Shown: piece by piece, positions 52 to 19,892 of the stretch
How the letters are laid out: each line of letters opens with the position of its first letter
How positions within the stretch are numbered: the first letter of the stretch is position 1
Assembly (NCBI RefSeq): GCF_000519265.1
Contig: NZ_KI912608.1
Span: 3,463,421-3,527,420, forward strand
Origin: Desulfonatronum lacustre DSM 10312
Lineage (GTDB): Bacteria; Desulfobacterota; Desulfovibrionia; Desulfovibrionales; Desulfonatronaceae
Length of the DNA: 64,000 nt
Direction: 5' to 3'
Made by a program: the position numbers and the translations under genes
Notes under the pieces: model-generated
Databases searched by the model: none
What the model was told of the DNA's origin: nothing
The model's input: the letters and a program-made list of their open reading frames with translations, nothing else

Positions 52-180
52 TGTCCAAATCGCAATCGAAATCGCAATCGAAATCGGAGAGAAATACGCA
101 CCACTACCGCATGTCCGCCGCCTTTGATGTTTCTTCTTTCGATTTCGATCACGATTTCGATTTCGATTTCGATTTGGACA
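52..180. repeat. Hexamer-built inverted-repeat element 1 (ATCGAA type)
   Basis: The left arm (52-86) and right arm (139-180) are made of hexamers of the form ATCGAA/ATCGCA and the reverse complement. The outermost 11 bases, TGTCCAAATCG and CGATTTGGACA, are perfect inverted repeats, so the element should fold into a long hairpin around a loop of about 50 bases. It lies just after trpF, and the last trpF codons run into the right arm. It is one of seven related elements in the window; the others are near 2.7, 4.9, 13.9, 15.5, 16.7 and 43.4 kb. Confidence 0.85.
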
Positions 181-844
181 ACTCGCTGGGCATGGCTTTG
201 ATGCGTTCCATGACCTTACGCAGCAGCACGGAACTCTTCCTTCCCGGAGCCTCCTCCACCCCGGAATTCAGATCCACGCCCCACGGACGACATCTGCCCA
301 AGGCTTCCTGGATATTGTCCGGGCTCAGGCCTCCGGCCAGAAGCCAGGGCCGAGGAAAGGTCAGGCGGGCTAGGGACGGGAAATCCAGGCTGACGCCGTG
401 ACCGCCCACCGCGGTTCCGGCGTCCAGGAGCACGGCCCGGCACGAGGACGCGAACGCGCCCATGTCTCGTTCCAGGTCTGCTAAGTTTGGATAGCGCAAG
501 GGCCAGAAGACCTTGACCACTCGTTCCGGCCCGACCTTTTCGCAGAAACGTCGGTCCTGACCTCCGTGAAGCTGGGCCAAGTCCAGATCGGCCTGGTCCA
601 TGATCTCCCGAACCTCTTCAGCGGTTTGGAGCACGAAGACCCCGACCCGCGCGGCCCGGCCTCGGGGCAGGGCCGCGACATGGTCCGGGCTCACGTTTCT
701 GGGGCTGGGCGGGTAGAAGATGAAGCCGGTCCAGTCCACGCCCAGCTCCTCGCACAGCGCCACATCCTCGGGGCGCCGCAAGCCGCAGACCTTGACCAGG
801 GGGCCGTCGACCCTTGAACTTCCTTGGCGGATTTGCTCACTCAT
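149..844 (-). CDS. trpF: Phosphoribosylanthranilate isomerase TrpF
   Basis: TrpF converts N-(5-phosphoribosyl)anthranilate to CdRP in tryptophan synthesis in the cytosol. The 231-residue protein shows the family signatures KVCGLRRPEDV near the N-terminus, LLDAGTAVGGHG, LAGGLSPDNI and GVDLNSGVEEAPGRK, in TIM-barrel order. The ATG overlaps the trpC stop by 8 nt, so the two are translationally coupled. Length is typical except for the tail: after KAMPSEL the frame enters hairpin element 1 and reads as alternating Ser-Lys (SKSKSKSKS) to the stop. The tail is therefore repeat-encoded and probably dispensable. trpB and trpA are not in the window and presumably lie to the left. Confidence 0.96.
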   Translation of the reverse strand: MSEQIRQGSSRVDGPLVKVCGLRRPEDVALCEELGVDWTGFIFYPPSPRNVSPDHVAALPRGRAARVGVFVLQTAEEVREIMDQADLDLAQLHGGQDRRFCEKVGPERVVKVFWPLRYPNLADLERDMGAFASSCRAVLLDAGTAVGGHGVSLDFPSLARLTFPRPWLLAGGLSPDNIQEALGRCRPWGVDLNSGVEEAPGRKSSVLLRKVMERIKAMPSELSKSKSKSKS

Positions 845-1661
845 GGGACTTTTCCTTGCGCAAAGCCCGCAGGAGTTCCGCCAGGGCCTGTCCGGGATCG
901 GGTTCCTGCATCAGCCGGGAGCCGATGAGCAGGCCGTGAAAGCCGGCGTCGCGCATCCGGGCCATGTCCTGGGCCGTGTTCATGCCGCTGGCGCTGATCC
1001 AGACCTCGCCTTCGGCCTTGTGCCGAATCAGGTTCTCCGAAACGCGCAGGTCCGTGGTCAGTCGATCCAGATCCCGGTTGTTGACCTGAATCAGCGTCGA
1101 ACTCGCCGCTTTGGCCTTGTCCAGATCCTCCTCGTCAAAAACCTCCACCACGGCCTCCAGGCCGAACGTCCAGCATTCGGCCAGCATGGATTCCAGTTCC
1201 GCCTGGTTGAGCATCCGGGCGATGAGCAACAGGGCCGAGGCCGGGGTGGCGGCGGTTTGGCGAACCTGCAGAGGGTGAAGCAGGAAGTCCTTGCGCAGCA
1301 GGGGCAGGCCGAGGGCGGCCATGACCGGGAGAAAGTCCAGGCTGCCCTGGAAATAGGCTTCCTCGGTGAGCACGGACAAGGCCGCTGCTCCGGCCCGGGC
1401 ATACCCGGCGGAGGCCTGCTCCGGAGTCCAGCTTGCATTGATCACCCCCCGGCTGGGCGAGGCCCGCTTGTACTCCGCGATCACCGCGCCCGGTCCCCGC
1501 TCCAACAAGGCTTTGGCCAGGGACGGACGAGGAATGGTGGACGGCTCGGGCAGGCGGCCCGCGGATTCCAGGGAGATCAGCTCCCGGATTTCAGCCTGCT
1601 TGGCCTGGCGAAAGCGCTCAAGCATGGAGCTAGCCATGGAGCTAGCCATGGAGTCCCCCAT
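837..1661 (-). CDS. trpC: Indole-3-glycerol phosphate synthase TrpC
   Basis: TrpC closes the indole ring (CdRP to indole-3-glycerol phosphate). Visible motifs include IAEYKRASPSRG, LTEEAYFQGSLDFL, PLLRKDF, VNNRDL, SASGM and GFHGLLIGSRLM, all diagnostic of a TIM-barrel IGPS. The start is uncertain. Four in-frame ATGs (first bases at 1661, 1649, 1637 and 1625) lie in a 12-bp tandem repeat and give the N-terminus MGDSMASSMASSM. The three upstream ATGs overlap the end of trpD. All forms keep the catalytic barrel. It sits between trpD and trpF in a tightly packed operon. Confidence 0.95.
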   Translation of the reverse strand: MGDSMASSMASSMLERFRQAKQAEIRELISLESAGRLPEPSTIPRPSLAKALLERGPGAVIAEYKRASPSRGVINASWTPEQASAGYARAGAAALSVLTEEAYFQGSLDFLPVMAALGLPLLRKDFLLHPLQVRQTAATPASALLLIARMLNQAELESMLAECWTFGLEAVVEVFDEEDLDKAKAASSTLIQVNNRDLDRLTTDLRVSENLIRHKAEGEVWISASGMNTAQDMARMRDAGFHGLLIGSRLMQEPDPGQALAELLRALRKEKSHE

Positions 1662-2655
1662 GAAGTACTCGGCCGCTCACGCCCCGCTTCATCGCGGCCC
1701 GGGCCAATTCCGCGCATTCCACCAAGGTCTTGCCCTCTTCCAGCAGAAAAAGGCAGGCCGCCAGATTCAGGGCCGCCATCTGGACCATGGCCGTTGGGCC
1801 GCCGCCGCCAAGAATTTCCCGCAGCACGCCCACGGCATGGTCCTTGTCCCGGACCGCCACGTCCTCCGGCGCATGGCGGTCGAAACCCAACCGTTCCGGG
1901 TTGATGGCCGTTTTTTCCATGATCCCGTCCTTGACCAGATAGCAGCGGGCCGGGCCAAAAGTGGTCAGTTCGTCGAACCCGCCGGCCCCGTGGACCACCA
2001 GAGCCCGCTCCACCCCGGTGAGCAGCAGGGCCTCGCCCATGGTGAACAGGGCCTCCGGGTCGCCCACGCCGATGAGCTGATGAGTGGGCCGGGCCGGGTT
2101 GAGCAGCGGTCCCATCAGGTTGAACAGGGTCCGGATGCCCAGATCCCGGCGCACGGGCATGATGTGCCTGAAGGCCGGGTGGTAGGACGGAGCGAAGAGG
2201 AAGACGAACTTGCCGACGGCCAGTCGTCCGGCCACGTCCTCGGGGTTCGTCTCCAGGGGCACGCCCAGGGCTTCCAGCACGTCCGCGCTGCCGCAGGAGG
2301 AGGACACGGCCCGGTTGCCGTGCTTGACCACCTGGTAGCCCAGCTCGGCCAGAAACAGGGCCACGGCCGTGGAGCAGTTGAAGCTTTGGGCATTGTCCCC
2401 CCCGGTGCCGCAGGTGTCGATCCGCGGTCCGGAAAGGCCGGGAATTTGTTTGGCATGGGCCAGCCCGGCCCGTACTCCGGCGGCCAGGTCCGTGGAGTCC
2501 TCGCCCTTGGCCCGCAGACCCATCAGGAAGGCGCCGGCCTGGGCCTGGCTCAGTTCGCCCTGGAGCAGGGCGTTGAACATCCGGTCCGCCTGCACGTCGG
2601 TCAGCGGCTGCCTGCGGGCCAGTTGTTCGAGGATGTCGCTTATGCGCGTGGTCAT
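1642..2655 (-). CDS. trpD: Anthranilate phosphoribosyltransferase TrpD
   Basis: TrpD transfers phosphoribose from PRPP to anthranilate. The 337-residue protein has the glycine-rich PRPP loop DTCGTGGD, the KHGNRAVSSSCGSADVLEALG segment and NLMGPLLNPA, the hallmarks of the class III (TrpD) phosphoribosyltransferase fold. It is a stand-alone TrpD with no fusion to TrpG. The 186-bp gap to trpG is filled by hairpin element 2, so this operon junction is unusual. Its 3' end overlaps the possible trpC starts. Confidence 0.96.
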   Translation of the reverse strand: MTTRISDILEQLARRQPLTDVQADRMFNALLQGELSQAQAGAFLMGLRAKGEDSTDLAAGVRAGLAHAKQIPGLSGPRIDTCGTGGDNAQSFNCSTAVALFLAELGYQVVKHGNRAVSSSCGSADVLEALGVPLETNPEDVAGRLAVGKFVFLFAPSYHPAFRHIMPVRRDLGIRTLFNLMGPLLNPARPTHQLIGVGDPEALFTMGEALLLTGVERALVVHGAGGFDELTTFGPARCYLVKDGIMEKTAINPERLGFDRHAPEDVAVRDKDHAVGVLREILGGGGPTAMVQMAALNLAACLFLLEEGKTLVECAELARAAMKRGVSGRVLHGGLHG

Positions 2656-2681
2656 TGGCTCTTACCTCCGGGTTCAGCGAT

Positions 2682-2854
2682 TAATACCATTTCCAATTCA
2701 GCGGTTCTTTATCGGCGTCGCTATCGGAATCGGTATCGGGGTCGGGGTCGGGGTCGAAGTCAGGCTATGCGCATTCAGACATCATCAATTCCGATGCCGA
2801 TTCCGACCCCGACCCCGACCCCGATAACTGCATTACCAAATCAGAATTGGTTTA
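2682..2854. repeat. Hexamer-built inverted-repeat element 2 (TCGG type)
   Basis: Left arm about 2711-2757 and right arm about 2788-2826 are complementary runs of hexamers such as ATCGGT, ATCGGG and GTCGGG and their complements. The outer ends (ACCATTTCCAATT on the left, and the complement of a similar 13-mer near 2841-2853) also pair imperfectly. The element lies between trpG and trpD inside the operon. It provides the last trpG codons, because the trpG TGA is at 2841-2843. Confidence 0.85.
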
Positions 2855-3411
2855 AGGCGTGCATCTTCAGAAAATTCTCCAATAATTTTGGACCATCCGG
2901 GGTCAGAATGGACTCCGGATGAAACTGCACCCCGGCCCAGGGCCGGTCCGTGTACCGCAACCCCATAACCTCGCCCTCGCCATCTTCGGTCCAGGCCGTG
3001 CGTTCCAGCAGTTCCGGAGCCTCCTCCACCCGGACCAGCAGGGAATGGTAGCGCCCGCACTCCATGGGCTGGGGCATACCGGCGAACAAGCCTTCGCCGG
3101 TATGCCGGACCGGCGAGGTCTTGCCGTGCATGATCCGCTGGCCCACCACCACCGACGCCCCGGCGTGATGTCCCAAAATCTGATGTCCCAGACAGATGCC
3201 CAGCACCGGGACCGAGATCGGCAGCAGCTTCAGGAACTCCAGGCACTTTCCGGCCAGCTCCGGTCGGCTCGGCCCCGGAGAGATGACCACGGCCTCCAGC
3301 TCCGGACTGGTCGCCAGGCCCAACAGCTCCGGCTGATCGTTGCGCACCACGTGGGGAAAACGGCCCAGAACCTGAAAGGCCTGGACCAGATTGAAGGTGA
3401 ACGAGTCGTAG

Positions 3412-3431
<20 letters not shown>
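2841..3431 (-). CDS. trpG: Anthranilate synthase glutamine amidotransferase subunit TrpG
   Basis: TrpG supplies ammonia from glutamine to TrpE. The start is the ATG at 3431 (MFLLIDNYDSFTFN), which overlaps the trpE stop by 20 nt; the longer upstream reading frame lies inside trpE and is not used. The class-I GATase triad is visible: Cys80 in GICLGHQ, and His and Glu in FHPES. At 196 residues it is the normal size for an unfused TrpG. Its last codons (LNQF) lie in the end of hairpin element 2. Confidence 0.95.
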
Positions 3432-4842
<1,411 letters not shown>

Positions 4843-4859: not shown

Positions 4860-5125
4860 GGTTCACGGTTCAACGGTTCAACGGTTCAACGGTTCAACGG
4901 TTCAACGGTTCATGGTTCAGTAATACCATTTCTAATTCAAAGCTTCTCTTTCGGTATCGGGGTCGGTATCGGTATCGGGGTCGAATTAGGATTATTGGCG
5001 AACAAACAGTATCGATCCCGATACCGATACCGACGCCGACCCCGATACCTGCATTTTCTCAAGCGAAAAACGCATTGCCGAAGCAGAAGTGGTATAACTC
5101 GCCCCCAACCGTTGAACCGTGAACC
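4860..5125. repeat. 19-bp perfect inverted repeat and GGTTCAAC octamer array around element 3
   Basis: GGTTCACGGTTCAACGGTT at 4860-4878 recurs as its exact reverse complement at 5107-5125. On the left side the octamer GGTTCAAC is then repeated about five times in tandem up to about 4912; the right side has only one copy. Both sides end in a run of eight T or A. The arrangement encloses hairpin element 3, giving nested inverted repeats between tyrA and trpE. Confidence 0.85.
4920..5098. repeat. Hexamer-built inverted-repeat element 3 (TCGG type)
   Basis: Left arm 4951-4985 and right arm 5010-5048 are complementary runs of TCGGTA/TCGGGG hexamers. The outer ends, GTAATACCATTTCT on the left and the complement of GTTATACCACTTCT at 5085-5098, match at 12 of 14 bases and resemble the end of element 2. 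It sits between tyrA and trpE, in the untranslated stretch ahead of trpE. Confidence 0.85.
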
Positions 5126-5208: not shown

Positions 5209-6018
5209 TCACGGGCCGGTTTTCTCCCCTTGCTCTGAACTTCGCCACCACCAGCCGGCCCGTTGGGCCAGGACGTCCACATCCCCGCCCGCGGCGAGGT
5301 TGAGATGGGAGCGGAACAGCCGGACCGCGTCCTGGCTGTAGGGGTTGGCCTCGAACAAATCCGCGAACAAGGCCGCGTCCTCGGTGAGCATCTTGCGGGC
5401 CGCTTCCAGGCGACGGCGGAAGGATGGGGTCAGGAAATCCCGGATTTCCTCGTCCCCGGCCAGAGCGGCCAGATAGGCACAGGTGGTCACGAAGTTCAGC
5501 CCCTGGACCGCGGCCATGGCCCGGTCGTGGGTTTCCGCGGTGGTCAGGAAAGGGATGAAGCCCAGTCGCTCCATGAGGATGGACACGGTTTGGGCCGCGG
5601 AATCGTCCCGGCCGGGAGTCACGGCCACCCGGGGATCGTCGCCGGGCTCTTGGCCGAACAAGGGATGCGTGCCCACCACCGGGCCGGAATGATGGCGGAG
5701 CATCAGAGCCAAAGGCTGGACCTTCACGGAACAGACGTCCATCACGATGGTCTCCGGGGAACAGTGCGGGCAACATTTTTTCAAAACTTCGTCCATGGCC
5801 GGGGCCGGAACGGCCAGGAGCAGCAGGTCGTGGCCGGGCACCATCTCGGCCAATCGGGCCGGCTCCAAAGGCTGGTCCGGGGGCTTATCCAGCCCGGTCA
5901 CCGCGACCCCTGCGGCCTCCAGACGGGAGACGAACAACCCACCCATCCGCCCGCGGGAGCCGATCACGCAACACCGGGAAATCGTCCCGGCCTGGTTTAT
6001 TGTATCCGCCTGGTTCAT
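5209..6018 (-). CDS. tyrA: Prephenate dehydrogenase TyrA
   Basis: TyrA oxidatively decarboxylates prephenate to 4-hydroxyphenylpyruvate for tyrosine synthesis. The N-terminal Rossmann loop reads IGSRGRMGGLF, as in Escherichia coli TyrA, and the substrate segment VVGTHPLFGQ is present. The 269-residue protein has no chorismate mutase domain; that activity is on PheA, which fits the operon. It overlaps the aroA stop by 4 nt (ATGA type) and is followed by a terminator. Confidence 0.92.
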   Translation of the reverse strand: MNQADTINQAGTISRCCVIGSRGRMGGLFVSRLEAAGVAVTGLDKPPDQPLEPARLAEMVPGHDLLLLAVPAPAMDEVLKKCCPHCSPETIVMDVCSVKVQPLALMLRHHSGPVVGTHPLFGQEPGDDPRVAVTPGRDDSAAQTVSILMERLGFIPFLTTAETHDRAMAAVQGLNFVTTCAYLAALAGDEEIRDFLTPSFRRRLEAARKMLTEDAALFADLFEANPYSQDAVRLFRSHLNLAAGGDVDVLAQRAGWWWRSSEQGEKTGP

Positions 6019-7376
6019 GTCGTTTCTCGTCCCGCACCGACAAGACCGGCTTTCAGCTCATCCCAACGCTTCCAGAACTCCGGAAAGGATTTGGCCACGC
6101 AGCCGGGCTGGTCCAGGTCCACGCCGATGCCGCCCAGTTCCAGCAGCGACAAGCTCATGGCCAGGCGATGATCCGCATAGGCCTTGAAGGCAAAGCGTTT
6201 TCCCACAGGCAACGGAGCCGGTTCGATGCGCAACCCGTCCTCCAGGGCCGTGGTTCTGGCCCCGATCCGGGCCAGCTCCGTGACCACGGCGTCCAGGCGG
6301 TCGCTTTCCTTGATCCGCAAATGGGCCACGTTGCGGATGGTGGTCGTCCCCTTGGCCTGGGCCGCCACCGCGCCCACCGTGGGCACCAGGTCCGGGCAGG
6401 CGCCCATGTCCAGATCCACGCCGTGCAGCTCGCCGCCGACCACGGTCACCTGATCTTGATCCCAGGACACCACGGCCCCCATCCGGGCCAGGATGTCCAC
6501 GATGGCCCGGTCGCCCTGAAGAGACTCGGGATTCAGGCCGCGCAGCCCCACCGGAACGGCGCTCAGGGCCCCGGCAGCCAGAAAATAGGACGCATTGCTC
6601 CAATCTCCCTCCACGGCCATGTCCCTGGCCCGATACGCACCGGGCTGAACCCGGATGCGCAACCGGCCCGGAGCAATCTCGCCGGGCTCGCGCCAGTCCA
6701 CGTCCATCCAGCGTTCATGGTGCAGGGTCTGCACCTGGAAGCGAATGCCGAATCGTTCCATGATGTCCAGGGTCAGACCGACATACGGCCAGGAAACCAC
6801 CTTGCTCCCGCCCACCAGAATGGTCATGGGCGCACGGGCCAAAGGCGCGGCCAGGAGCAGGCCGGAGAGGTACTGGCTGGATTCGTCCAGGTCGATAGTC
6901 ACCTCGCCTCCGGGCAGCCCGGCGGCATGCAGCTCCAGAGGCGGGCAGCCGGGCTGCTCCAGGTACTCCGCCTCGGTTCCCTGGGAAGCCAGGGCCGTGA
7001 CCAGGCTGGCGATGGGCCGGGCGTGCATCTTGCCTCGCCCCTGAATCCGAAAGGACCCATGCCCGGCGGCCAGCACCGCGGTCAGCAACCGACAAGTGGT
7101 CCCGGACTCGCCCACGTCCATGACCAGCGGCCCCAGGCCGTCCCGGCGTTCCCGGCCCAGGGGGCCGTGCGGCATGCCCGAGACAGCATAGCTGCCGGGA
7201 GCGTCACGCTCGATCAGGGCCGAAGCCCGGGCCAGAATATCCCGGGTCCGCTCCAGATCCTCGCTTTCCAGAACATTGCTCAAATGGGACCGGCCAGGGG
7301 CCAGTGCCGCGGCGATCAGGGCGCGGTGGGAGAGGGACTTGGAGGCCGGAGCCTGGAGGATGACGGGGGTCGGCAT
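6015..7376 (-). CDS. aroA: 3-phosphoshikimate 1-carboxyvinyltransferase (EPSP synthase) AroA
   Basis: AroA joins PEP to shikimate-3-phosphate in the sixth shikimate step. Recognisable parts are the N-terminal LQAPASKSLSHRALI segment, ESGTTCRLLTAVLA (equivalent of the usual GNAGTAMR/L segment), GRGKMHARPI, and DHRLAMSLSLLELGG near the C-terminus. The ATG at 7376 is preferred because AGGAACAACCT lies just before it; a GTG at 7421 would overlap pheA. At 453 residues it is slightly longer than the E. coli enzyme. Confidence 0.92.
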   Translation of the reverse strand: MPTPVILQAPASKSLSHRALIAAALAPGRSHLSNVLESEDLERTRDILARASALIERDAPGSYAVSGMPHGPLGRERRDGLGPLVMDVGESGTTCRLLTAVLAAGHGSFRIQGRGKMHARPIASLVTALASQGTEAEYLEQPGCPPLELHAAGLPGGEVTIDLDESSQYLSGLLLAAPLARAPMTILVGGSKVVSWPYVGLTLDIMERFGIRFQVQTLHHERWMDVDWREPGEIAPGRLRIRVQPGAYRARDMAVEGDWSNASYFLAAGALSAVPVGLRGLNPESLQGDRAIVDILARMGAVVSWDQDQVTVVGGELHGVDLDMGACPDLVPTVGAVAAQAKGTTTIRNVAHLRIKESDRLDAVVTELARIGARTTALEDGLRIEPAPLPVGKRFAFKAYADHRLAMSLSLLELGGIGVDLDQPGCVAKSFPEFWKRWDELKAGLVGAGRETT

Positions 7377-7410
7377 AGGTTGTTCCTGAAAAGATTGAGA
7401 AGTGAAAAGC

Positions 7411-8556
7411 TCACCCTTCACTGACGTCCAGATACGGCCCGGACGGGTAGCTGCCGAGGATGCGCAGGGTGTGGCAGTTATTGCGCAGGTCGGTCAGGAC
7501 TTGTTGGTATTCCTGGCGACTGACGTCGCATTCCAGATCCACGAAAAACACGTACTTCCATTTTTCACCACGAAAAGGCCGGGATTCGAGCTTTTTCATG
7601 TTGATGCCCTCCCGGGCCAGCAGGTTCAGGACCGCGGCCAGGGCGCCGGGCTTGTCCGGCAGGGTGAACAGAATGGACGTTTTGTCCTGGTTTCCAGCCC
7701 CGGCGGGAAGGGAGCCGATGACCAGGAAGCGGGTCCAGTTGTCCGGCTGGTCCTCGATGCGCCGGGCCAGGGCGGTCAGACCGAGCATCCGGCCCATACG
7801 GACATGGCCGATGGCCGCGCTGGTCGGCTCCTCCAGCACCCGACGACCGGCGGCCGCCGTGCTTTCCGCGGGCACGATCCGGGCCATGGGCAGGTGGGAG
7901 CGCAGCCAGGTCGAGCACTGCTCCAGGGCCTGGGGATGGGAGTAGACCGTGGTCACGTCGGCCAGTTGGCGGGCCGTGGAGAGCAGGGCATGGCTGATCT
8001 TGCAGTAGATTTCCGCCTGGACGTGGACCTCGAATTGCAGGAACAGGTCCAGGCTCTGGCCCACGGTGCCTTGCAGGGAGTTTTCCAGGGGGATCACGCC
8101 CAGTTCGGCTTCCCGGGCCACCACGGCCTGGAAAACCTCGTGCAGGGTGGGCTTGGGCTGGAATTCCGCGCTGTGCCCCAGGTATTCCACCCCGGCGAAA
8201 TAGGAAAAGGTTCCCTCCGGACCAAGATAGACGATGGTCTGGGGGCGTTGGAGTCGCCGGGAAGAGGAGAGGATTTCCCGGTAGATGTTGCGCAGATGAT
8301 CTTCCGGAAGCGGACCGGGGTTGGCCGCGGTCAGGCTGGCCAGCAGTTCCTTTTCCCGGAACGGCTTGAAAATGATGTCCCGGGAATCGCGCTTGATCCG
8401 CCCCACTTCCAGGCTCAGGGCGGCCCGGCGGTTGAGGGTGGCCAACAGTTCCTGGTCAATGGCGTCGATGCCGTGACGCAGCTCGGCCATGCGGGTCTGG
8501 GCCTCGGGTGGCAGTTCGGATGACAATTCGGACGGGTCGGAATGGTTCGGGCTCAT
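7411..8556 (-). CDS. pheA: Bifunctional chorismate mutase / prephenate dehydratase PheA
   Basis: PheA converts chorismate to prephenate, then to phenylpyruvate. Residues about 20-105 form the AroQ helical chorismate mutase (RHGIDAIDQELL, RAALSLEVGRIK). Residues about 107-285 form the dehydratase, with LGPEGTFSYFA, PLENSLQGTV and the catalytic NWTRFLVIG (Thr275-Phe277). Residues about 295-375 form an ACT domain with the Phe-binding ESRP motif (324-327), so allosteric feedback by phenylalanine is expected. The start overlaps the aroB' stop by 4 nt. Confidence 0.96.
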   Translation of the reverse strand: MSPNHSDPSELSSELPPEAQTRMAELRHGIDAIDQELLATLNRRAALSLEVGRIKRDSRDIIFKPFREKELLASLTAANPGPLPEDHLRNIYREILSSSRRLQRPQTIVYLGPEGTFSYFAGVEYLGHSAEFQPKPTLHEVFQAVVAREAELGVIPLENSLQGTVGQSLDLFLQFEVHVQAEIYCKISHALLSTARQLADVTTVYSHPQALEQCSTWLRSHLPMARIVPAESTAAAGRRVLEEPTSAAIGHVRMGRMLGLTALARRIEDQPDNWTRFLVIGSLPAGAGNQDKTSILFTLPDKPGALAAVLNLLAREGINMKKLESRPFRGEKWKYVFFVDLECDVSRQEYQQVLTDLRNNCHTLRILGSYPSGPYLDVSEG

Positions 8557-9524
8557 GCTTCGCTGATCTCCTCGCTGATGGCCATGCCGAAATGGCGTCC
8601 GGCCGCGTCCAGCCGGCAGAGAATTTCATCGCCCGGAGCCAGGGCCACCACGCTCACCGGCGTTCCGTCGGGCCGGACCAGGCGGATGGTCTCCGCGTTC
8701 TGCAGAAAGATCGTGCCGGCTTTGTCCCCGCAGGTCGCGGAAATCAGGATCAAGGGCCGGATTTCCACCTTGGAGCGGCCGACCACGGCCAATGATGTCC
8801 GGCCCTCGGCGTCGACGATCAGCACTTCCCGTCCGGAGGCGACTTCACCCAGATAGGCGGTCCGGTTCCGCGGCAGCAGGGTGTAGGCATGCACGGCACC
8901 GGCGTTGATCCGGAAGGGCCGGGCCGCGACATACGGATTTTCCTCGGTCTCGGCATGCACCAGAAAGGTAAAGGCGCTGGAATTGCCCACGAGCATGCCC
9001 TGGCCGGTGCGCAGCAGGGAACAGGTGTCCACGCAGACCCGATGCCCCAGCCCCACGGGGGTGATGGCGTCGATCCGGGCCGTGCTCAGTTCCAGCCGGC
9101 CCTCGGAGAGCTTCAGGGCGGTCACGATGGCCTTCAGGTCATGTATGGCCTCGGGCACGACCACCACGAAATCCACGCCCCGCTCCAGAATGCCCGCGGC
9201 CAATCGGGCCTGCTCCAGGGAGGCCACTTCCACACCCAGGCCTTCCCCCTGAGCCAGGATGTTTTCCACGGGAATGATCTCCCAGCCCAGGCGTAACAAT
9301 ACTTTGCCCTGGGAGCGCATGCAGCGCGTCGCGGCTTCCTCGTCGGCCTTGCTTTCCAGACAAATAGCGTCCACCTCGTCCTCGGCGAACACCACGACCC
9401 GCCCCAGGGCCTTGATTGCATCAACCTTGTCCGCCGGGGCGATCAGGGCGTCCACCCCGGATTCCAGGGCCAGGGTCACGGTGGTCTTGTCAAAGGGTAC
9501 GGCCTTGAACCAAACTTGGATCAT
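8553..9524 (-). CDS. aroB': 3-dehydroquinate synthase II (AroB', DKFP route)
   Basis: This enzyme family oxidatively deaminates and cyclises 2-amino-3,7-dideoxy-D-threo-hept-6-ulosonate to 3-dehydroquinate, replacing the classical DAHP/AroB entry. The diagnostic block VGLGHRVCVDTCSLL..GQGMLVGNSS is present, with PFRINAGAVHAYTLLP after it, and the 323-residue length fits. The route was defined in methanogenic archaea and is known in Desulfovibrio. It lies directly behind the DKFP synthase gene, its functional partner. Confidence 0.93.
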   Translation of the reverse strand: MIQVWFKAVPFDKTTVTLALESGVDALIAPADKVDAIKALGRVVVFAEDEVDAICLESKADEEAATRCMRSQGKVLLRLGWEIIPVENILAQGEGLGVEVASLEQARLAAGILERGVDFVVVVPEAIHDLKAIVTALKLSEGRLELSTARIDAITPVGLGHRVCVDTCSLLRTGQGMLVGNSSAFTFLVHAETEENPYVAARPFRINAGAVHAYTLLPRNRTAYLGEVASGREVLIVDAEGRTSLAVVGRSKVEIRPLILISATCGDKAGTIFLQNAETIRLVRPDGTPVSVVALAPGDEILCRLDAAGRHFGMAISEEISEA

Positions 9525-9533
9525 GATGCGCTC

Positions 9534-10337
9534 CTACTGTAACAGTTCCATGGCCTGGGCCACTTCCCAGTCGTCGTGGACGATGCCGTGCAGGGCCTGG
9601 ACCAACCGGGCCGGCTGGGCGGCCTGAAAGATGTTCCGACCGATGGACAACCCCGCGCCGCCGGCTTGCAAACTGTCGTAGACCATGCGCACCAGGTCCT
9701 CGCTGCTGTCCAGCTTCGGTCCGCCGGCAATGACCACCGGCACGCAGCAGCCGTCCACAACCCTACGAAAGGACTCCACGCTGCCGGTATACGGCACCTT
9801 GACCACGTCCGCGCCCAGTTCCACGCCCACTCTGGCGCACTGGGCCACCACGCCCGGATCGTATTCGTTGCCGACTTTCGGTCCCCGGGCATAGATCATG
9901 GCCAGCACCGGCATGCCCCAGTCCATGGCCGTGGAGGTCACCCGGCCCATCTGTTCCAGCATGTCGCGCTCGGTCTCGTCGCCAATATTGACGTGCAGGC
10001 TGACCGCGTCCGCGCCCAGCTTGATGGCGTCCTCCACCGTGCCCACCAGGGTCTTGGCGTTGGGAAACGGCGACAGGGACGTGCTGGCCGAGAGATGGAC
10101 GATCAATCCGATGTCCGCCCCCTTGCCTCGGTGGGAGCAGCGCACCAGCCCCTTGTGCAGGATGATGGCGTTGGCTCCGCCCTCGGCCACCCCGTTGATG
10201 GCGTCGCGCATGTCCACCAGCCCGTCGATGGGCCCGACGCTGACCCCGTGGTCCATGGGCACGACGATGGTCCGGCCCGTGTTGCGGTTGAAGATCCGTT
10301 CCAGACGGACGGCTTTTCCCAAGTGCATGTTCTGCAT
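9534..10337 (-). CDS. aroA': 2-amino-3,7-dideoxy-D-threo-hept-6-ulosonate synthase (AroA', class I aldolase family)
   Basis: First enzyme of the alternative aromatic pathway: a transaldolase-like condensation giving the seven-carbon amino sugar used by AroB'. The 267-residue protein belongs to the DhnA/class I fructose-bisphosphate aldolase family, with [10 protein letters not shown] (27-36), a lysine in [10 protein letters not shown] (Lys180, the expected Schiff-base residue) and VVIAGGPK. The ATG at 10337 (MQNMHLGK) has a strong GGGGAGGGG Shine-Dalgarno; the longer frame upstream runs through the attenuator and is not used. It is the first structural gene of the supra-operon. Confidence 0.92.
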
Positions 10338-10406: not shown

Positions 10407-10440
10407 AAAAAAAGGGCCGCCGGCGGTTTGCCTGCGGCCC
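10407..10440 (-). terminator. Attenuator terminator in the aromatic supra-operon leader
   Basis: On the minus strand GGGCCGC and GCGGCCC (10440-10434 and 10420-10414) form a perfect 7-bp GC stem, with extra pairing inside, followed by seven T residues (10413-10407). It lies about 30 bp beyond the leader-peptide stop and about 70 bp ahead of the first gene, aroA', so it can only act as an attenuator of the operon behind it. Confidence 0.88.
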
Positions 10441-10505
10441 TTTGAGAGCGGTTTTGATAGAGTTTCCTACTATTTCGGATACACCGCTTCCCTCTGACCA
10501 CAGGC
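10430..10505 (-). promoter_or_regulatory. Antiterminator pairing overlapping the attenuator
   Basis: GCCTGTGG (10505-10498, in codons for Ala-Cys-Gly just after the aromatic run of the leader peptide) can pair with CCGCAGGC (10437-10430), which is the 5' arm of the terminator. This gives eight pairs, one of them G-U, and is mutually exclusive with the terminator. A ribosome stalled on the aromatic codons just upstream would leave GCCTGTGG free to form the antiterminator. The pairing is seen in the sequence; the regulatory outcome is inferred from classical amino acid operon attenuation. Confidence 0.75.
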
Positions 10506-10574
10506 CAAACCACGCCAAAAATAAAAAAAACCAAAATAAAAGTTCGTGGAGAGGAAAGTAGTGGAGGAATGCAT
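10470..10574 (-). CDS. Leader peptide rich in Phe/Tyr/Trp (attenuation sensor)
   Basis: A 34-codon frame starts at the ATG at 10574 and ends with TAG at 10470-10472. Residues 11-20 read NFYFGFFYFW: five Phe, two Tyr and one Trp in nine consecutive codons (12-20). A terminator and a competing antiterminator follow immediately. This is the arrangement of the phe, trp and his operon leaders of enteric bacteria, but here all three aromatic amino acids are sensed at once, matching an operon that makes all three. No strong Shine-Dalgarno is visible, and the best promoter match places the transcript start only a few bases upstream, so it may be translated from a nearly leaderless end. Confidence 0.85.
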   Translation of the reverse strand: MHSSTTFLSTNFYFGFFYFWRGLACGQREAVYPK

Positions 10575-10583
10575 GGGGAAGAG

Positions 10584-10612
10584 CAATAATGAAATTTTCC
10601 GAAACGTGTCAA
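10584..10612 (-). promoter_or_regulatory. Candidate sigma-70 promoter of the aromatic supra-operon
   Basis: A perfect -35 box TTGACA (10612-10607) is followed after 17 bp by TTATTG (10589-10584), a weak -10 box. The start of transcription would be near 10577, only a few bases from the leader-peptide ATG. An additional promoter further upstream, in the AT-rich stretch to about 10680, cannot be excluded. Confidence 0.45.
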
Positions 10613-10781: not shown

Positions 10782-11498
10782 ATGGATAAGAAAAGCTGGT
10801 TGCAGAAATTGGAATCCATGGAGCAAGAGCGCCAGGAGGTCGAGGTCCCTGAGGAGGAAGAGCGGGGGTCGCTACGCGACGCTCTCGAAGGGAGAGGAAA
10901 GTATGTGATCCTGGGAGGCATCGGTCTGTTCGTGCTGGTCCTGCTGGTGATTATCGCCTCTTCAGGCGGCGGGAGCAAGTCGGATCGCGATTTTCATGAC
11001 ATCCTGGCCCGACTGGAGGTCATTGAGACGAAACTGGTCGGGTTGGAAAATCAAGAGAGCGGGCGGCAGCAGGCCCTGGTGCGGATGCAGGGCGATTTCA
11101 GCATTCTGACCATGCGGGTGGACAAGCTTTCCCGCGAAATGAAGGAACAGGCAGCCGAGACCGCGCCGAGCCAGGAACAGCGCCAGGAACAGCGTCAGGC
11201 CGCGGCCCAACCGGCTAGGCAACCCGCTCCGCAACCTGCGCAACAGCCGACTCAACAACCGACCCAGCCCCGACAACAGCAGCAGACCGCCGCGACCCCG
11301 GCTCCCGCGCCCCAGGCTGCCCCAGCCGAACAGCCACGTCCGGCCGCGTCCAGGCCGGTGACCCACGAAGTGCAGCCCGGCGAAACCCTGTTCCGGATCA
11401 GCCAAACCTACGGGGTGAGCGTGGACGATTTGCGTCGTCTGAACAATATTTCCGGAGATCGGATCAACCCCGGCCAAGTCCTCAAGGTGCGACCGTAA
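10782..11498 (+). CDS. Membrane-anchored LysM-domain protein
   Basis: The 238-residue protein has a charged N-terminal cytoplasmic segment, one membrane helix (about 41-60, YVILGGIGLFVLVLLVIIAS), a coiled-coil-like region (about 67-135), a long Gln/Pro/Ala-rich linker (about 135-190) and a C-terminal LysM domain starting at HEVQPGETLFRISQTYGVS. LysM binds peptidoglycan, so it probably tethers the inner membrane to the cell wall. GGGAG lies ahead of the ATG. It is divergent from the aromatic operon and ends at a strong terminator. Its exact role is unknown. Confidence 0.85.
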   Translation: MDKKSWLQKLESMEQERQEVEVPEEEERGSLRDALEGRGKYVILGGIGLFVLVLLVIIASSGGGSKSDRDFHDILARLEVIETKLVGLENQESGRQQALVRMQGDFSILTMRVDKLSREMKEQAAETAPSQEQRQEQRQAAAQPARQPAPQPAQQPTQQPTQPRQQQQTAATPAPAPQAAPAEQPRPAASRPVTHEVQPGETLFRISQTYGVSVDDLRRLNNISGDRINPGQVLKVRP

Positions 11499-15510: not shown

Positions 15511-15623
15511 AGTCGTCGGTGTCGGCGTCGGAATCGCTATCGAGACCGATATTTTCTATACGCCAATAACCTGGATTCGATCCCGATTCCGATCCCGATT
15601 CCGATCCCGATAGCGACACCGAA
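15511..15623. repeat. Hexamer-built inverted-repeat element 5 (TCGG type)
   Basis: Left arm 15511-15544 (GTCGGTGTCGGCGTCGG-like) and right arm 15577-15623 (repeats of CGATCC/CGATTC) are complementary. The right arm ends about 15 bp before the ATG of the downstream transporter gene, so it would form a hairpin in that gene's 5' untranslated region or overlap its promoter. Confidence 0.85.
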
Positions 15624-19503: not shown

Positions 19504-19682
19504 GGCTTGTTCATGAAAGAGTTCTCGACGTCTCGGCGAATGAACAAAGCAATCTCTCTCTCATCAGACCGGCGAGGTGTCGCAGGTAGAAGACTGAGGA
19601 GGCTTCGAGGAAATGGGGCCGCCCCCTAAAGGGGACGACGTGAATCCGGCTTGTGCCTCGAAGCCGCGAAACAATGCAGCTC

Positions 19683-19848
19683 CATCAGGCAGGTCTCCCG
19701 GCTTGAGGATCATCCTACTTGCCACGCCTTCCCATCCGGCGGCAAAAAGCCGGACAGTGGCATATCGTGGCGTTCGTCCCCTTTCACGGTTGCGGGCCAG
19801 CGCCGGACTTTCACCGGACTTCCCATTTCATCCTTGCGGAACCTGACG
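19683..19848 (-). ncRNA. Cobalamin (adenosylcobalamin) riboswitch, no gene downstream
   Basis: The minus strand has the conserved cobalamin aptamer in order: closing stem CGTCAGG (19848-19842) with CCTGATG (19689-19683), TGGGAAGTCCGGTGAAAGTCC, CTGGCCCGCAACCGTGA, GCCACTG, GGGAAGGCG, GATGATCCTCAAGCCGGGAGACCTGCC. All core blocks are intact. Downstream on this strand (19682 to 19504) there is only an inverted repeat (GGCTTCGAGG/CCTCGAAGCC) and then the 3' end of the convergent GGDEF/TPR gene. No open frame follows. The B12-related gene it once controlled seems to be lost, or it controls a non-coding transcript. Confidence 0.92.
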
Positions 19849-19892
19849 GAGGAAAACGCACGGCCAACGCTTGCGCAGGCCGTGAGTTGCGT

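Follow-up and report, generated by a model that had tools for sequence, protein, structure and literature searches.

A predicted joint phenylalanine, tyrosine and tryptophan attenuator at the head of the DKFP-route aromatic supra-operon of Desulfonatronum lacustre and other Desulfovibrionales

The aromatic supra-operon of Desulfonatronum lacustre DSM 10312 is very probably preceded by a ribosome-mediated transcription attenuator whose sensor is multivalent for aromatic amino acids, as judged from sequence comparison across the order. The region in question was identified within a 64,000-nucleotide stretch of DNA, here termed the window, in which it is flanked by a divergently transcribed gene (10782-11498, forward strand) and by the gene encoding 2-amino-3,7-dideoxy-D-threo-hept-6-ulosonate (ADH) synthase of the DKFP route (9534-10337, reverse strand; NCBIfam TIGR01949, 395.7 bits, above the cutoff). 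The latter represents the first structural gene of a supra-operon of 12 co-oriented genes, of which trpBA are the last. On the same reverse strand, it is followed by the 3-dehydroquinate synthase II gene (8553-9524; NCBIfam NF002628, above the cutoff), by pheA (prephenate dehydratase), aroA, and a tyrA-like gene (5209-8556), and by trpE, trpG, trpD, trpC, and trpF (149-4842), these being NCBIfam assignments for which the best models of trpE, trpC, trpF, and tyrA score below their own strict cutoffs. The trpB and trpA genes, identified by reading their sequences, are located just past the window edge (L130, positions 7397-6219 and 6074-5301). The 12 genes presumably constitute a single transcript, and internal promoters could reside in the repeat-bearing gaps upstream of trpE and trpD. 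Tandem repeats of 6 to 12 bases are present both between operon genes and elsewhere (window positions 57-175, 2710-2756, 4860-4919, and 15574-15611), while a cobalamin riboswitch is located at window positions 19671-19861 (Rfam RF00174, 113 bits).

The leader peptide ORF, MHSSTTFLSTNFYFGFFYFWRGLACGQREAVYPK (10470-10574, reverse strand), comprises 34 codons and a stop, with its ATG at 10574 and its TAG at 10470-10472. Its sensor codons, 11 to 20, specify NFYFGFFYFW, and an earlier note on this DNA had both the position and the sequence of this frame right. The ORF is rich in codons for the end products of the operon, a property expected of an attenuator. A pyrimidine-rich region 1 (10558-10572, reverse strand) can pair with region 2 as an anti-antiterminator, according to folding and to permutation across genera. 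Region 2 (10488-10511, reverse strand) consists of the antiterminator 5′ strand GGTTTGGCCTGTGG (10511-10498), whose core is GCCTGTGG (10505-10498), and of the next bases, which pair with region 1. Region 3, CCGCAGGCAAACC (10425-10437, reverse strand), serves as both the antiterminator 3′ strand and the terminator 5′ arm; the two structures are mutually exclusive through this common strand, and compensatory changes accompany them. The antiterminator formed between GGTTTGGCCTGTGG and CCGCAGGCAAACC (10437-10425) contains 13 pairs and one bulge, and the pairing of GCCTGTGG with CCGCAGGC (10437-10430) that had been proposed previously is correct, albeit too short. The intrinsic terminator (10407-10443, reverse strand), located between the leader ORF and the first structural gene, was previously described as a perfect GC terminator ending in seven T residues; the hairpin (10443-10411) and the seven T residues (10413-10407) are indeed present, but the former contains one A·G mismatch. 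The 87-nt stretch holding the antiterminator folds at -35.5 kcal/mol (z = -4.7 relative to shuffles), the terminator hairpin with its T-run folds at -24.6 (z = -3.8), and the hairpin pattern matches once in the whole 3.76-Mb genome.

Relatives were anchored on the 3-dehydroquinate synthase II gene, found in 282 of the 297 genomes of the order, the DKFP homologue being ambiguous as an anchor because many genomes carry paralogues. Tandem doubling of DKFP-synthase-like genes at the operon head was observed in several genera (L054, L055, L065, L068, L069, L086-L088, L108, and L110). Across the 120 operon regions compared (window included), representing approximately 40 genera, terminators were called by the motif GCCGC(A/G/T)GGC, a loop, GCCGGCGGC or a close variant, and a T-run. 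By these means, a leader ORF and a terminator motif were detected upstream of the DKFP gene in 119 operons, the motif search giving no match in the remaining one (L159). The alignment across Desulfovibrionales of the aromatic codon run, antiterminator, and terminator, which had been suggested as a check, thus bore out the original description in 119 of 120 operons, and we regard the leader, antiterminator, and terminator upstream of the DKFP operon as confirmed, at the level of sequence, to be real and conserved throughout the order.

Phe and Tyr codons are present in all 119 leaders and Trp codons in 113, and at least seven aromatic residues per 12 codons were found in 108 of these 119 homologous leaders versus 45 of 3000 (1.5%) random 300-nt stretches drawn from the same loci. 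In comparisons of close pairs, which are not mutually independent, 676 aromatic codons were unchanged, while the changed ones comprised 51 synonymous replacements, 23 replacements by another aromatic codon, and 70 others; the synonymous share (51/144) exceeds the 1/9 that, by our own estimate, would be expected for random single changes of Phe codons. Substitutions upstream of region 2 affected codon positions 1, 2, and 3 in 238, 215, and 242 instances, respectively, and this lack of an overall third-position excess counts against the model.

Base pairing is retained alongside codon content. The 8-bp antiterminator core forms all eight pairs in 99 leaders and seven of eight in 14, and the central antiterminator pair is T:A in 78 leaders, C:G in 25, T:G in 8, and A:T in 7. 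The A:T form, found in the Fundidesulfovibrio group and in a single member of a different genus, converts a Cys of the leader peptide to Ser, which argues that it is the pairing of the RNA that is maintained and not the peptide. In permutation tests using one leader per genus (n = 39), native antiterminator strands yielded -21.8 versus -19.2 (sd 0.35) for strands swapped between genera, and native pairings of regions 1 and 2 yielded -21.2 versus -17.9, with 0 of 20000 permutations in either case; region 1 could thus sequester the antiterminator strand, although shared base composition may contribute to its signal. The terminator 3′ arm, mostly GCCGGCGG, does not follow the antiterminator changes and usually leaves a mismatch, and its invariance perhaps keeps the antiterminator competitive. 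In the window, this arm reads GCCGGCGGC (10414-10424, reverse strand), which is near-invariant across the order and mismatched to a varying 5′ arm.

Initiation of the leader also appears to be leaderless, a point overlooked in the earlier note, which had otherwise listed leader parts that are all present. A -35 element (TTGACA; 10607-10612, reverse strand), conserved in relatives, lies 38 nt upstream of the leader ATG, and a probable -10 element (TATTGC; 10583-10588, reverse strand) is suggested by its position and by conserved spacing in relatives. Transcription is predicted to start at or beside the leader ATG, i.e., to produce a leaderless mRNA. Among the 76 trp-holding operons, TTGAC(A) occurs 35 to 40 nt upstream of the ATG in 71, which would position a -10 element approximately 7 nt before the ATG, and a Shine-Dalgarno core is present in 3 of these 71. 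The trp-less Desulfovibrio/Mailhella group, in which a few leader start codons are ambiguous, mostly exhibits a longer distance between TTGAC(A) and ATG, and a Shine-Dalgarno sequence in 19 of 22 cases.

Transcription probably begins at the leader ATG, presumably with a ribosome trailing the polymerase. A shortage of charged Phe-, Tyr-, or Trp-tRNA would stall this ribosome within the aromatic codon run, leaving region 2 free to pair with region 3 before the terminator 3′ arm is made and thereby permitting read-through into the DKFP-aro-phe-tyr-trp operon. Where all three amino acids are plentiful, the ribosome would run on to the stop codon, which lies immediately beyond region 2, and part regions 2 and 3, such that the terminator would form, in which state region 1 could hold region 2. 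Sequence comparison demonstrates the set of parts, how they are conserved and covary, their fixed spacing, and the association of Trp codons with trp genes, whereas we infer translation of the ORF, its start site, ribosome stalling, and read-through upon limitation of any one amino acid. The geometry of the leaders is consistent with such a scheme: in 80 of the 119 leaders, the last aromatic codon precedes region 2 by an identical distance, and in most, the end of the stop codon falls 24 to 30 nt past the start of the antiterminator strand. If the edge of the ribosome is placed 16 nt from the P-site codon, the antiterminator strand would be left fully free by stalling at 459 of 545 Phe codons, 276 of 367 Tyr codons, and 104 of 163 Trp codons, while stalling at the final aromatic codon, which is Trp in the run of this genome, would mask between one and four region 2 bases.

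Time-ordered folding assigned the antiterminator a probability of 0.93 with the ribosome stalled and the 3′ arm not yet made, whereas the full-length RNA at equilibrium favored the terminator even with a stalled ribosome (0.91). Antitermination must, therefore, be kinetic, as attenuator switching in general is thought to be. Before synthesis of the 3′ arm, the antiterminator was also favored in the absence of a ribosome (0.74), and clear termination in an untranslated leader is consequently not predicted.

The case for Trp as a third sensed amino acid derives from a comparison of leaders with operon content. Trp codons are present in all 76 leaders of trpE-holding operons, with at least two in 41, while in the 33 operons lacking trpE they occur in 27 leaders (one codon in 26 and two in one) and are absent from 6. 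Two or more Trp codons are thus found in 41 of 76 trp-holding operons versus 1 of 33 others, and the six Trp-less leaders, which reflect five independent losses, all come from operons that lack trp genes. On the 3-dehydroquinate synthase II tree, operon trp content underwent at least five changes, and leaders shifted between having and lacking Trp codons five times. Few independent events underlie the association of Trp codons with trp genes, an independent-pairs sign test having too few pairs to reach significance, and the association is one-directional, because most trp-less operons keep one W. In most of 14 cases in which trpE is split off, the gene is preceded by its own leader with clustered Trp codons (for example, MNVFSNTISNSFKGWWWRIQLRGGDVRA) and then a terminator, the leader at L126 containing a single Trp. 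These separate Trp leaders, mostly WWW, were observed upstream of trpE at L113-L126, outside the aromatic supra-operon. In one case (G051, L050), the sole trpE-family match in the genome is weak, and trpE itself, therefore, seems to be missing. The joint Phe/Tyr/Trp reading advanced in the earlier note is supported by the tracking of trp content by Trp codons and by the separate Trp-cluster leaders at split-off trp genes.

Similar leaders were also identified outside the order. Among 13 DKFP-type loci from other families of the phylum Desulfobacterota, eight (two of which are near-identical) carry, ahead of the DKFP gene, a leader rich in F and Y together with a terminator whose sequence differs, an example being MQQLKGGFYYFSYFDLGLPTVS, with GGTCTGCCCAC facing GTGGGCAGACC. 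Trp lies within the aromatic run of two of these eight leaders, and trpE was not detected within the regions retrieved for the 13 loci. The F/Y-rich leaders at L291-L301 likely represent the same control in an ancient or independently evolved version. It is reasonably probable, in our estimation, that the leaderless leader peptide constitutes a three-input OR gate, in which scarcity of any single one of Phe, Tyr, and Trp would open the whole supra-operon at the DKFP entry step; that its codons are evolutionarily tunable, with Trp sensing moving to a separate Trp-only attenuator where the trp genes leave; and that the principle extends across Desulfobacterota with different terminators.

The most substantial rival explanation is that only one or two amino acids (Phe/Tyr) are sensed, with the Trp codons being a T-rich by-product or too close to region 2 to function. 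F and Y codons occur in every leader and are more common than W, which is often located late in the run, where stalling would mask part of region 2, and trp-less operons often retain one W. Against this stand the presence of W in every trp-holding operon, often two or three times, the restriction of all five losses to trp-less lineages, and the majority of W codons at which a stall would leave region 2 fully free; we consider sensing restricted to Phe/Tyr unlikely. It is far less probable still that the leader encodes a TnaC-like arrest peptide, whose nascent chain would bind the free amino acid within the ribosome, instead of tRNA charging being read through its codons. A conserved short aromatic peptide ahead of an operon would have much the same appearance in that case, but the order and spacing of the residues vary widely (FYFWYW, QYWYYW, SYFFFFYFWRW, and YVFVYDYY), with aromatic content alone being kept, and the residues following the run (ACG, ARG, and ASG) change along with the terminator RNA.

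Only a very slight chance is accorded to either of two further possibilities. T-rich DNA readily gives Phe codons, as the 1.5% of random stretches noted above illustrates, and an ordinary terminator, belonging to an upstream gene or generic to the intergenic region, might adjoin a chance T-rich ORF. Such a coincidence is contradicted by conservation and covariation, by the single occurrence of the hairpin pattern in the genome, and by the retention of leader and hairpin in nearly all operons; moreover, the upstream gene is divergent, and no known transcript, therefore, ends at the leader terminator. A structured leader with a terminator would equally suit a metabolite-binding riboswitch or T-box controlling the operon, to which the ORF would be secondary. 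However, no conserved sequence resembling an aptamer was evident beyond the hairpin and region 2, and in an Rfam scan of the leader no family, including T-box and the amino acid operon leaders, reached its gathering score, the best subthreshold matches being to unrelated families. Ribosome-mediated attenuation with joint aromatic sensing is, accordingly, the reading that we prefer.

Our verdict is that the element is real and represents a new variant of ribosome-mediated attenuation, of which the type of mechanism and multivalent sensing were already known. We know of no earlier joint Phe/Tyr/Trp attenuator, and this would, to our knowledge, be the first. It would explain, for the entire order, how sulfate reducers that enter by the archaeal-type DKFP route regulate the shared pathway and its three branches by one RNA switch. 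The F/Y/W leaders of full operons and the trp-less operons with separate Trp-cluster leaders would amount to a natural experiment in which sensor codons can be seen to track the gene content of their operon, and the leaders would offer extensive covariation data for a new RNA family, along with an opportunity to test leaderless initiation within attenuation. A 2013 survey that included Desulfovibrionales drew on only the Rfam leaders for His, Trp, Thr, and Leu, with attenuators for Ile/Val and Phe also being mentioned (PMC3766115). No prior description of a three-aromatic sensor was found in the open-access literature searched, and priority is uncertain beyond that literature.

The earlier note had held that sensing in known attenuators is limited to one amino acid, which is mistaken, since multivalent attenuators are already known: the leaders of ilvGMEDA and thr sense two or three amino acids. 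As is generally known, the enteric ilvGMEDA and thrABC systems likewise combine one leader peptide, codons for several end products, and a competing antiterminator and terminator, but they employ branched-chain or Thr/Ile codons, whereas the present leader employs those of three aromatic residues and apparently lacks a Shine-Dalgarno sequence. The enteric trpL and pheL leaders, also familiar, share the control-codon ORF, the alternative hairpins, and the intrinsic terminator before the first gene, but each responds to a single aromatic amino acid and governs one branch, while the device described here is placed where the common pathway begins and stands ahead of every branch. The Trp-cluster leaders (mostly WWW) of split-off trp operons in Desulfovibrio, Mailhella, and their relatives belong to the same order of bacteria and are built from the same parts (a short ORF, a terminator hairpin, and the first gene), but they would sense Trp only and their terminator differs in sequence from that of the DKFP leader. 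In the trpLE(G) attenuator of Sinorhizobium meliloti, the transcript starts with the ATG of the leader ORF and is thus leaderless (PMC7298713), whereas such a start is predicted here; that attenuator senses Trp only, through a 14-aa leader whose peptide differs from the one described in this study.
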